64,000 nt of DNA from positions 992,001-1,056,000 of the forward strand of contig NC_011529.1 in the NCBI RefSeq assembly GCF_000018365.1. The letters run 5' to 3'. Under the pieces are notes generated by a model. It did no database searches. It was not told where the DNA came from and saw only the letters and a list, made by a program, of their open reading frames with translations. This DNA is from Thermococcus onnurineus NA1. GTDB taxonomy: Archaea > Methanobacteriota_B > Thermococci > Thermococcales > Thermococcaceae. A program made the translations under genes and the position numbers. Positions 1 to 35,498 of the stretch are shown one piece after another; positions within the stretch are counted from its first letter, which is position 1; every line of letters starts with the position of its first letter.

Positions 1-260
1 TCCTCTATGTTATCAACTCCAAGTGCTATGTGGTGTATGCCTTCACCACGCTTGGCAATGAACTTGGCTATTGGGGAGTCCTCGGCCGTTGGCTCCAGAA
101 GCTCGATTCTGCTCTCGCCGACATGGATTATCGCAGTTCTAACCTTCTGATCCGGCACTTCTTCAATCTCCTCGACCTTGAGGCCGAGACCTTCCCAGAT
201 CTTTATGGCCTCTTCAAGGTTCTTCACTGCAATACCGACGTGGTCAATTTTCTTTATCAT
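1..260 (-). CDS. mce: Methylmalonyl-CoA epimerase (C-terminus cut by window edge)
   Basis: The enzyme interconverts (2R)- and (2S)-methylmalonyl-CoA and so connects propionyl-CoA and succinyl-CoA metabolism. The visible part, about 86 residues, starts [18 protein letters not shown], the usual opening of the vicinal-oxygen-chelate fold of this family; His7 and the later GIHHIALGV segment supply metal ligands in relatives. The rest of the gene lies off the left edge. The ATG overlaps the TGA of the upstream MeaB gene (ATGA), which indicates one transcript and translational coupling. Family assignment is firm; the end is not visible. Confidence 0.93.
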
Positions 261-1225
261 ACCCTCACCCCCAGAGTTTTTTCAAGAACCAAATCCGCGG
301 CAGAGTACGGGTCTATCTCCCGCTTCACAATTCTATCTATCAGGCCCGAAACCTCTTCCTCGTCGAGGCGCTCACTTATCATCTTCGCGATTCTACCGGA
401 GATTATAGTCTTAACCTCTTCTTCTGCACGGAACTTCCTCTTGCGCTCTATTTCGCCACTCCTTTCAAGGAACTCATGGTGATCTTGTATTGCCTTCCAG
501 AGGTCTCTTATGCCTCTCATTGTCGTCGCCACGGTCTCGACTATCGGCGGCCTCCAGCCGCGCTTCTCCCAGCGCTCCTTCTCGAGGTCGAGCATCATAT
601 TAAGTTCGAAGTAAGTGGCATCTGCCCCTTCTTTGTCGGCCTTATTTATGACGAAAATGTCCGCTATCTCCATAAGGCCGGCCTTAATAGCCTGTATGTC
701 GTCGCCCAGTCCTGGAACTGTAACAAGGACGACTGTGTCTGCAGTTTTGACGATGTCAATCTCTATTTGGCCCACACCAACCGTCTCAACGAAAATAACG
801 TCACAACCGTAAGCATCAAGCACCTTTATCGCGTCACTTGTGGCCTTGGCCAGTCCACCAAGGGAGCCGCGTGTGGCCATGCTTCTGATAAAAACGCCGG
901 GATCAGTCGAGTGCCTTTGCATCCTTATCCTGTCGCCGAGCAGAGCGCCGCCGGTGAAAGGCGAGGTCGGATCGATGGCTATGACGCCGACAACTTTGCC
1001 TTCCTCCCTCGCGACCCTGATCAGCTTGTCGAGAAGAGTTGATTTTCCAGCTCCAGGGGGGCCAGTGATACCGACGATATAGGCATTGCCCGTGTGGGGG
1101 TAGATCTTTTTGATTACTTCTCTAGCTTTATCCTCGTCGTTCTCTACTAGGGTTATCAGCCTGGCCGTGGCGCGCTTATCTCCCTGGAGCATGCGTTCGA
1201 TCAGGTCGTCTATCATCGTCATCAC
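257..1225 (-). CDS. meaB: MeaB/ArgK-type GTPase, methylmalonyl-CoA mutase chaperone
   Basis: G3E-family GTPase of 322 residues that in studied relatives protects and reloads the adenosylcobalamin cofactor of methylmalonyl-CoA mutase. A Walker A motif GPPGAGKS is near residue 55, and an NKAD guanine-specificity motif near residue 193. It lies between the cobalamin-binding mutase subunit and the epimerase, as expected for this job. The first codon read is GTG at 1225, with in-frame ATGs at 1222 and 1216; no strong ribosome site precedes them. A TATA-like TTTATAAT at 1249-1256 would place transcription start close to the start codon, so a leaderless transcript is possible. The exact start is uncertain by up to three codons. 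Confidence 0.93.
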
Positions 1226-1227
1226 TC

Positions 1228-1242
1228 GGACAAATTATCCAA
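1228..1242. promoter_or_regulatory. Copy of the mutase-linked motif before meaB
   Basis: The plus strand reads GGACAAATTATCCAA, differing at one or two positions from the cores found upstream of the two methylmalonyl-CoA mutase subunit genes (1762-1776 and 35482-35496 read on the minus strand). It occupies most of the 25-bp gap between the small mutase subunit and meaB, downstream of a TATA-like box at 1249-1256. Relative to the genes it is inverted compared with the other two copies, which matters little for a near-palindrome. A role as binding site is inferred. Confidence 0.5.
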
Positions 1243-1250
1243 GAAAGAAA

Positions 1251-1691
1251 TTATAAAGTTAAGCCTTCCCTAAAGCGCTTGAGGTTCTCTACGGCCCTAT
1301 CAATGAAATCAATAGTCTTCTGAAGCGGCGTCCCCGGTCCAAACACTTCCGCAACACCCATCTTTTTGAGTTCCTCGGCATCGTCGGGCGGGATTATTCC
1401 ACCGGCAAAAACAACGATATCCTCGTTCAGCTTAAGACCCCTTTCCTCAAGGAGCTTGAGGATCTTAGGTATTAGAACCATATGTGCACCTGAGAGAATG
1501 CTTATTCCCAGTACGGCGGCATCTTCCTGTATGACTGTCTCAACTATCTGTTCCGGAGTCTGTCTTATACCCGTGTAAATGACTTCATACCCTGCATCTC
1601 TCAGCGCCCTCGCAACGACCTTGGCGCCTCTATCATGGCCATCAAGACCGGGCTTGGCGATAACGACCCTAACCTTTGAGCGCTCGACCAT
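1251..1691 (-). CDS. Methylmalonyl-CoA mutase, cobalamin-binding subunit
   Basis: Separate B12-binding subunit of 146 residues; in many archaea the mutase is split into a large catalytic chain (here at 33722-35410) and this small chain. The segment GLDGHDRG contains the DxHxxG motif whose His coordinates cobalt from below, and SILSGAH and FAGGIIPPDD are typical of the Rossmann-like B12 domain. A GTG at 1700 is also in frame, but ATG 1691 is preferred because GGTGG precedes it at suitable spacing. A TATA box at 1724-1731 lies about 25 bp before the predicted start site. MeaB follows 25 bp downstream. Confidence 0.94.
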   Translation of the reverse strand: MVERSKVRVVIAKPGLDGHDRGAKVVARALRDAGYEVIYTGIRQTPEQIVETVIQEDAAVLGISILSGAHMVLIPKILKLLEERGLKLNEDIVVFAGGIIPPDDAEELKKMGVAEVFGPGTPLQKTIDFIDRAVENLKRFREGLTL

Positions 1692-1723
1692 TTCAACCAC
1701 CGGAAGGATTTTGTTCCGGATAG

Positions 1724-1778
1724 TATTTAAAGATTGTCAAAACTAAAGGTTGGACTTTACATTGGATATTTTGTCCAG
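1724..1778 (-). promoter_or_regulatory. Promoter of small mutase subunit with upstream element
   Basis: On the minus strand a TATA box TTTAAATA lies at 1731-1724. About 30 bp upstream of it is the near-palindrome that reads TTGGATATTTTGTCCAG on the plus strand (1762-1778), flanked by AACTAAAGGT at 1741-1750. The same arrangement, at the same internal spacing, precedes the large mutase subunit at 35461-35498. Position upstream of the TATA box suits an activator; that is inference. Confidence 0.6.
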
Positions 1779-2457: not shown

Positions 2458-5400
2458 TTTCGATTCTCTTAGAATCTTATTGCAACTAAGAAATGGGGCA
2501 CTAGCTTCGGCGGTTGGAATTTGGTTTCAATTCTCTTAGAGTCTTATTGCAACCTGTGGGTGGTTCCACCAGAGCTTTGCAACGATTACTTTCAATTCTC
2601 TTAGAGTCTTATTGCAACCCTTGAAATCCCGATAAGCGGGAGCTACGAGTTTCGTTTCAATTCTCTTAGAGTCTTATTGCAACTTCTTGCCACGGTCGCC
2701 TACATCACAAGCTACGATGAGTTTCAATTCTCTTAGAGTCTTATTGCAACGCTCAACATGGACGATGACATCATAGACAGGGTTGCAGGTTTCAATTCTC
2801 TTAGAGTCTTATTGTAGAGTCTTATTGCAACACCGATGTTGTCAGCCTGTCGTTTTCATACACTTATAAAGTTTCAATTCTCTTAGAGTCTTATTGCAAC
2901 TGCACTCCTTTATCGCGGCCCGGAACGTGCGGAGGAGGGTTTCAATTCTCTTAGAGTCTTATTGCAACTCGCTTCGACGGTGGCTTTTGTCTCCGGATTC
3001 ATCATCGTTTCAATTCTCTTATTGAGACGAAGTTGGCAACTCCAACACATGCGCCCGTTTCAATTCTCTTAGAGTCTTATTGCAACCAGATCGCCTGCTG
3101 GGTCTGGCTCATCTGGCCGTGCTCGCTTTCAATTCTCTTAGAGTCTTATTGCAACCCGGCATCAGGGCTGACACCTACTCAACGACCCTCTATGGTTTCA
3201 ATTCTCTTAGAGTCTTATTGCAACAGGAGGAAGATGGCAAGTATCATGTTTATGATAAGAAGTTTCAATTCTCTTAGAGTCTTATTGCAACACGAATCTA
3301 TCAACCGAGTCAATGGCCCGAGTTCTAGTTTCAATTCTCTTAGAGTCTTATTGCAACCCATTGGCCCCTCTTCAAACAACGTCAAGGTAAAATTGTTTCA
3401 ATTCTCTTAGAGTCTTATTGCAACCGGCGAGCTCGACCTCATACGTCACGACCACACCCTGTTTCAATTCTCTTAGAGTCTTATTACAACCTACCTCAAG
3501 CAGTAGGAACGTGTTGTTCCCGTCCGTGTTTCAATTCTCTTAGAGTCTTATTGCAACCTACTGCTATGATAAACTCCACTGCTCTTTTTAGATGGGTTTC
3601 AATTCTCTTAGAGTCTTATTGCAACATAAAGGGCTCGGGGAGGGTATTCTCCGAGACCCTTGTTTCAATTCTCTTAGAGTCTTATTGCAACTCTCCCACT
3701 CAATCTTATCGATTATCCTATCAATGTGTTTCAATTCTCTTAGAGTCTTATTGCAACTTTGGGCGACTCTGTTTGCTTTTGCGTTCTGGTATCTGTTTCA
3801 ATTCTCTTAGAGTCTTATTGCAACATAAAACGGCGGTTTCGATTACTTGTGTCTTGTTCTCTGTTTCAATTCTCTTAGAGTCTTATTGCAACTTCGCGTT
3901 TGCGACCTGTTCAGGGGTGATGTTGCCCGTTTCAATTCTCTTAGAGTCTTATTGCAACTTGCCGTGCCGGTGAGGGCTGCTGATGTTCAATACTAGTTTC
4001 AATTCTCTTAGAGTCTTATTGCAACGGCAGCTGAGACGGGCGAGAGCGTTGTGTTCACTGTGTTTCAATTCTCTTAGAGTCTTATTGCAACAAGCCGAAT
4101 CACTTTTGTATTGAGCCCATATTTTATGAGTTTCAATTCTCTTAGAGTCTTATTGCAACTGGCACCCTGCCAAGACTGCTGCGGCAAAGCTCTGGTTGTT
4201 TCAATTCTCTTAGAGTCTTATTGCAACAAACAGAGCAGAGACTCTAAAGAGATGGGTGGGAATTAGTGTTTCAATTCTCTTAGAGTCTTATTGCAACAAA
4301 GAGATAAAGCGCGTCGTCCGTGACGGTATTGCCAAGTTTCAATTCTCTTAGAGTCTTATTGCAACCTTGACTTCCTTCTCGATCTTGAGGCTGTCCTTCT
4401 GTTTCAATTCTCTTAGAGTCTTATTGCAACCCACGTCGCCCTGGTAGTAAAAATAGACGCTGACGTGTTTCAATTCTCTTAGAGTCTTATTGCAACATGC
4501 AGTAGTGCTTAAACCAGCTCTTGATCTTCTTTGTTTCAATTCTCTTAGAGTCTTATTGCAACGGAGACTATGAAACCCTCGAAGCCGATGTAAACTGTGT
4601 TTCAATTCTCTTAGAGTCTTATTGCAACATGAGCATCAGCCACGGCTCAGTGCCCCTGCTCAGGAAGTTTCAATTCTCTTAGAGTCTTATTGCAACATGA
4701 AGGCTCAGGCCGACGCGATAAGCCCTGAGAACACGTTTCAATTCTCTTAGAGTCTTATTGCAACTTCAGAAACCTTGCAATACTTATGATAGTACTGAAC
4801 CTGTTTCAATTCTCTTAGAGTCTTATTGCAACTCGGAACGGCCTTGCGGTAGATGATGTAACCAACGAGGTTTCAATTCTCTTAGAGTCTTATTGCAACC
4901 TGCATACAACTCGCAAGAGACCTCGTTGAATATGGCGTTTCAATTCTCTTAGAGTCTTATTGCAACCTATGGTCTTGGCCTGGCCGCTGAGCTGAGAGAA
5001 AACGAGTTTCAATTCTCTTAGAGTCTTATTGCAACCTGAGCGTCAGGTTTCCACTCCAGGCCAGCATGATTTGTTTCAATTCTCTTAGAGTCTTATTGCA
5101 ACTCGGCTTCATGAAGTTCTTTTTCGGCAACATCCTTCTGTTTCAATTCTCTTAGAGTCTTATTGCAACCTCACCGTCAGGCGTGACCAAAATGTGGAGC
5201 TCGTTGTTTCAATTCTCTTAGAGTCTTATTGCAACGGTTGCCATCCTGCTGAATATCGCCGGCCTCAATCCTTGTTTCAATTCTCTTAGAGTCTTATTGC
5301 AACATAAGCGTCCTGACGGCCTTATCAATGAAGTTGATGTGGTTTCAATTCTCTTAGAGTCTTATTGCAACGGTGTGGATCATGTGAATCTCGTCCTGGG

Positions 5401-5976
5401 TCAGGACGGGTTTCAATTCTCTTAGAGTCTTATTGCAACAAATCAAAGCTGCCCGTGTGCTGTACTCCGACATACTCGTTTCAATTCTCTTAGAGTCTTA
5501 TTGCAACCAACGCTTGGCATTGCCATAGCTCTTGTACTAGCCATGTTTCAATTCTCTTAGAGTCTTATTGCAACCCCCCTGACAACGAAGAATGAGCCTG
5601 CAATGTTACCAAGTTTCAATTCTCTTAGAGTCTTATTGCAACAGTTATTAGTTTGGCCAAGCGCATCTTCCAAAACTCGTTTCAATTCTCTTAGAGTCTT
5701 ATTGCAACCTCAATCAGAGGCTCTGGCTGAGTTTCCTCAAATTCAGTTTCAATTCTCTTAGAGTCTTATTGCAACGTGAGGATGGCAAAAAGGAAAACCT
5801 CTAAGAAAATCAAGTTTCAATTCTCTTAGAGTCTTATTGCAACTGGCAAAGTGCCGAGGGCTGAACTCCGCGAAGCGACGTTTCAATTCTCTTAGAGTCT
5901 TATTGCAACTCCCGTTCACGAGCTGTTGGCCGGCCTGCGCAATCTGGTTTCAATTCTCTTAGAGTCTTATTGCAAC
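2457..5976 (-). CRISPR. CRISPR array, 53 repeat units, about 52 spacers
   Basis: The 30-bp repeat reads GTTTCAATTCTCTTAG at its left and ends TTATTGCAAC on the plus strand; spacers are mostly 35-40 bp and the mean period is 67 bp. Transcription is inferred to run leftwards: the complement ends in ATTGAAAC, matching the 8-nt 5' handle of Thermococcales crRNAs, the A/T-rich leader lies at the right, and the degenerate terminal unit lies at the left (2457-2486, three mismatches). Irregular units: 2789-2831 carries a 13-bp internal duplication; 3007-3021 is cut to about half a repeat; 2589 and 3126 begin with C instead of G; 3461-3490 has one G-to-A change. No cas genes are in the window, so Cas proteins must act in trans. 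Apparent reading frames across the array are artefacts of the repeat. Confidence 0.98.
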
Positions 5977-33721: not shown

Positions 33722-35410
<1,689 letters not shown>

Positions 35411-35442: not shown

Positions 35443-35498
35443 TATAAAAAGCTTTTACATAACGAAAGGTCAAACTTGATGTTGGATATATTGTCCAG
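35443..35498 (-). promoter_or_regulatory. Promoter of large mutase subunit with shared element
   Basis: Minus-strand TATA box TTTTTATAG at about 35451-35443, with the near-palindrome TTGGATATATTGTCCAG (plus strand, 35482-35498) about 33 bp upstream. The preceding AACGAAAGGT (35461-35470) matches the flank of the site at 1741, at the same distance from the palindrome. See the corresponding entry at 1724-1778. Confidence 0.6.

Follow-up and report, generated by a model that had tools for sequence, protein, structure and literature searches.

A palindromic operator predicted to mark a cobalamin regulon in Thermococcaceae, with a composite form at the mutase genes

We find that the element shared by the two methylmalonyl-CoA mutase (MCM) genes of the window (the whole 64-kb stretch of DNA analysed here) is built on a 15-bp palindrome, TGGAYAWWWTRTCCA, which recurs throughout the Thermococcaceae. 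We predict, with a probability of roughly 70%, that this palindrome serves as operator for a cobalamin-responsive regulon in the family, in which a single factor both activates and represses depending on where its site lies. Judged by gene content, the palindrome appears to mark a cobalamin regulon that is wider than the mutase pathway, and the strongest pointer to B12 as the signal is an isozyme pair: the B12-dependent ribonucleotide reductase NrdJ and the B12-independent NrdD both carry sites, which argues for B12, rather than propionate or amino acids, as what is sensed.

The original prediction had reported a 38-bp element upstream of both mutase genes, and its estimate of the identity, its TATA spacings and its assignment of the two minus-strand genes to the mutase subunits all hold (Table 1). 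Positions 1741-1778 and 35461-35498 agree at exactly 30 of 38 positions, and the runner-up 38-mer for the former segment, over the whole window and both strands, agrees at 22/38. Each copy has the palindrome as its core, within the 17-mers TTGGATATTTTGTCCAG (1762-1778) and TTGGATATATTGTCCAG (35482-35498). Three matches to the pattern TTGGATAWWTTGTCCAG were detected in the window at up to three mismatches, against 0.30 expected; a position matrix of the regulon sites likewise matched three times, at 24.8, 23.9 and 22.4 bits, with the next match at 9.1 bits. The third matrix match, absent from the original prediction, lies before meaB, where it is kept in 7/7 genomes examined, and the operator before the MCM small subunit is kept in all 6 genera.

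Table 1. Predicted operators, promoter elements and genes in the window.
Feature	Position	Strand	Remarks
Predicted B12-regulon operator, 15-bp palindrome	1763-1777	-	31 bp upstream of MCM small TATA box
Second box CCTTTAGTTTTGACAA of MCM composite	1734-1749	-	13 nt downstream of operator, transcribed strand
TATA box TTTAAATA, MCM small promoter	1724-1731	-	
MCM small (B12-binding) subunit	1251-1700	-	PF02310, 2.2e-27
Third predicted B12-regulon operator	1227-1241	-	8 bp downstream of MeaB TATA box, directly 5' of meaB start
TATA box TTTATAAT, internal meaB promoter	1250-1257	-	
MeaB, mutase-associated GTPase	257-1222	-	PF03308, 3.1e-99
Methylmalonyl-CoA epimerase-like gene, glyoxalase fold	1-260	-	Glyoxalase_4, 4.7e-19
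Predicted B12-regulon operator	35483-35497	-	32 bp upstream of MCM large TATA box
Second box CCTTTCGTTATGTAAA of MCM composite	35454-35469	-	
TATA box TTTTTATA, MCM large promoter	35443-35450	-	
MCM large (catalytic) subunit	33722-35410	-	PF01642, 5.6e-243

The open reading frame of the small subunit starts with a GTG at 1700, an ATG at 1691 being the likelier start, and the epimerase-like gene follows meaB on the same strand and extends past the window edge. On its other side, the MCM small operator adjoins a TATA-like stretch of a divergent PHP-domain gene (1779-1808; start about 1807), whose promoter it may also affect. A long CRISPR array with RF01319 repeats (2524-5976, minus strand) lies just past this PHP-domain gene, beside the mutase operon.

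Searching 94 Thermococcaceae genomes for the palindrome at up to one mismatch, we detected 917 sites, compared with 73 for the reversed pattern; the palindrome was present in 94/94 genomes, and in each of them the sites outnumbered the reversed control. At up to three mismatches, the genome that contains the window (1.85 Mb, one contig) has 18 matches, of which the good ones precede, by Pfam and NCBIfam annotation, the genes for MCM small, MCM large, MeaB, NrdD, BtuF (two sites) and BtuC. Also among the good matches are those before NrdJ and before a CitMHS transporter gene, behind which lies a succinyl-CoA ligase-like alpha subunit. By the regulon-site matrix, MmdA lacks a site in this genome. 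The target list recurs in loci from ten genomes of six genera, with the additional targets CobT, CbiB, CbiP, CobA (one genome) and MmdA (three genomes of genus g1), such that the palindrome is common to B12 uptake and salvage genes. Succinyl-CoA ligase sites occur in some genomes and are absent from some of genus g4. The regulon was assembled from searches and from stretches that were read, and some chance matches are left among the sites, with some single-mismatch matches sitting within unrelated genes. In other families of the same class, the genes at or around the inspected matches had no evident B12 function, and no regulon was seen.

The original prediction had named random placement of the motif, or its absence before mutase genes in related species, as grounds for discarding it; placement proved non-random, and relatives carry the motif before their mutase genes. 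This conservation in six genera strongly supports a regulator common to the two mutase genes, but the element is not specific to the mutase or to amino-acid degradation. A mutase-specific regulon does not fit, as the palindrome also precedes genes that take up B12 or salvage corrinoids and those of the two ribonucleotide reductases.

In the window genome, sites also occur close to two paired lipoprotein genes (L006) and close to glutamine synthetase (L007). Its BtuF (L124:6316-8199) is 627 aa long with two Peripla_BP_2 stretches, and the BtuF-like proteins of genera g2 and g4 are about 330-340 aa. Immediately behind nrdD and a putative activase, L125:9940-18001 encodes a Peripla_BP_2 protein, an ABC transporter and a CobN-type chelatase of 1252 aa, which may provide another connection to corrinoids or metals. 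In genome G042, a site lies between the CbiB region and a divergent gene for a small cysteine-rich protein (L118:1473-1793).

The core matrix is nearly invariant at G2, G3 and A4 and at the mirrored positions, and its centre is exclusively A/T. Its symmetry is partly by construction, since each site entered the count in both orientations, but a near-perfect palindrome is also seen within single sites, as binding by a dimer would lead one to expect. A protein dimer would presumably bind the palindrome, and the factor is most likely a dimeric winged-helix protein.

The sites fall into two geometry classes, lying either about 31 bp upstream of the TATA box or just downstream of it, with TATA boxes called by a simple consensus score that was wrong by eye at two loci (L066 and L082), where another 8-mer was chosen. 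The upstream class comprises MCM small (31-32 bp before TATA in 7/8), most MCM large promoters (about 31-34 bp) and MmdA (31-32 bp in 3/3). In genus g3 the spacing, read by eye, is 20-21 bp in both MCM genes, shorter by about one helical turn. In the downstream class, sites lie 2-22 bp past TATA at MeaB, BtuF, BtuC and most NrdD and CobT promoters. BtuF promoters have two sites, one on either side of TATA; CbiP, despite being a salvage gene, has its site upstream of TATA; succinyl-CoA ligase promoters, also of the upstream class, have the site 6-11 bp before TATA in 3/4, with varying spacing; and the sites of NrdJ lie far from its start codon, at about 170 bp. In the transcription start site map of T. 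kodakarensis, TATA lies about 23 bp before the start (PMC4247193), so that sites of the downstream class reach into the start region or border on it.

These positions suggest how a single factor might act with opposite signs. When (adenosyl)cobalamin is sufficient, the factor would bind the palindrome. Bound just downstream of TATA, it would block transcription start, shutting off, when B12 is plentiful, uptake (BtuF, BtuC), salvage (CobT, CbiB), NrdD and the internal meaB promoter. From a position about 31 bp upstream of the TATA box, the factor would activate the users of B12 and their pathway, namely MCM small, MCM large, MmdA where the site is present and probably NrdJ. The CbiP, NrdJ and succinyl-CoA ligase sites fit this model less well. 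Both cobalamin as the signal and the signs of control are read here from which genes carry sites and from where the sites lie; a distance of 31-32 bp upstream of TATA fits the original suggestion of an activator. The full picture, of one factor that senses cobalamin unlike known B12-binding regulators, activates or represses by its position relative to TATA, swaps NrdJ and NrdD and is tied to the mutase through a composite element, is a tentative proposal that we judge less likely than not.

The 38-bp unit consists of two parts, the palindrome common to many genes and a second box, containing CCTTT, that occurs at the two mutase genes only. Operator and CCTTT box at fixed spacing matched 66 times in 51 genomes, compared with 2 control matches, and 30/30 inspected composite loci lay upstream of MCM small or large; together with the finding that the exact box occurs in the window genome only at the two MCM promoters, this indicates that the 38-bp element is a mutase-specific composite on a general operator. 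One could suppose that two factors are at work, one binding the palindrome wherever it occurs and another, specific to the mutase genes, binding the CCTTT box, as the confinement of the exact box to the MCM promoters would suggest; the box is kept at fixed spacing in 5/6 genera, and MmdA has the 31-bp spacing without it. However, the box lies directly against the BRE/TATA region and may be an extension of the promoter, and in genus g3 it is absent by eye at both MCM genes, where the spacing is also shortened, which implies that the box is not essential. We consider a second factor unlikely.

As to the identity of the factor on the palindrome, a weak candidate is a PH1932-type ArsR-like protein (G000:1526964-1527536; structures in PDB 1ULY and 2CWE), which would sense cobalamin without a known B12 domain, a refinement of the single-factor cobalamin regulon rather than an exclusive alternative to it. 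This protein occurs in 74/74 near-complete genomes, where its identity is 78-100%, its relatives outside the family reaching no more than 35-41%, and the palindrome lies about 115-150 bp upstream of its gene in 10/10 genus g1 loci and in genome G089. Yet the gene has no nearby site in examples from genera g2, g4 and g6, and in several cases it stays beside succinyl-CoA ligase, such that the adjacent site may reflect that neighbour. We therefore regard this assignment as improbable. The PH1932-type gene, that of a protein of 101 aa and that of another ArsR-type factor form a cluster (L128:5074-6705), which is kept beside succinyl-CoA ligase alpha in several genera.

Other candidates were rejected. 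A FilR1-type factor lies 4 kb from BtuF, and in G089 a relative is preceded by a site at 129 bp, the sole such case. For a CarH-like factor, we checked both PF02310 proteins of the window genome, MCM small and a radical-SAM protein, and neither has a DNA-binding domain by Pfam. Riboswitch control was set aside, as the Rfam cobalamin covariance models gave no match in the window or in six regulon loci of genome G000.

The sign of control also bears on a purely repressive scheme, in which every target, including those with upstream sites, is repressed under one common condition. At most target promoters the site does lie past TATA, where archaeal repressors classically bind. But the upstream sites stop about 31 bp short of TATA, which is too distant for a direct block of TATA/BRE, their spacing is constant across genes and genera, and repression of both NrdD and NrdJ would leave the cell with no ribonucleotide reductase of these two classes, making this scheme quite improbable. 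Least probable of all is a local regulator of the methylmalonyl-CoA/propionyl-CoA pathway that senses a CoA ester or amino-acid supply, since the palindrome precedes uptake, salvage and ribonucleotide reductase genes unrelated to propionyl-CoA and MmdA of the window genome lacks a site, even though the strongest composite is restricted to the MCM genes and both MmdA and succinyl-CoA ligase have sites in some genomes.

If the single-factor cobalamin regulon is correct, an archaeal vitamin regulon would gain a sharp operator and targets across B12 uptake, salvage, use and replacement, and the sign of control could be predicted from a positional code. Identifying the factor would reveal cobalamin sensing that involves neither a riboswitch nor a recognised B12-binding regulator.

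Several known systems invite comparison. In bacteria, the cobalamin riboswitch (B12 element) governs uptake and synthesis as well as isozymes that do without B12, ribonucleotide reductase among them; it differs in being an RNA device, and neither the window nor the regulon loci gave a match to it here. CarH and other B12-domain transcription factors are protein regulators that read adenosylcobalamin, and differ in that this genome encodes no protein joining PF02310 to a DNA-binding domain by Pfam. In some archaea, a CBL-box, put forward by Rodionov et al. in 2003 in J Biol Chem, is reportedly the signal for a hypothetical B12 regulator. SurR recognises a GTTnnnAAC-type site and senses redox/sulfur. 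A reference title in PMC10746257 presents SurR of Pyrococcus furiosus as an activator and repressor, providing a Thermococcales example of dual control. Closest to the present system, and as cited in PMC10746257, RegPrecise lists a predicted P. furiosus cobalamin regulon, 'CblrR', which is alike in organism family, in its cobalamin genes and in that its regulator is not known. The original prediction knew of no described motif of this form in Thermococcales, but in view of that entry one probably exists; the palindrome is probably the same operator as that of this already predicted cobalamin regulon (CBL-box/CblrR), and the idea of a cobalamin regulon is itself not new. The mutase composite and the positional code, on the other hand, are probably new.
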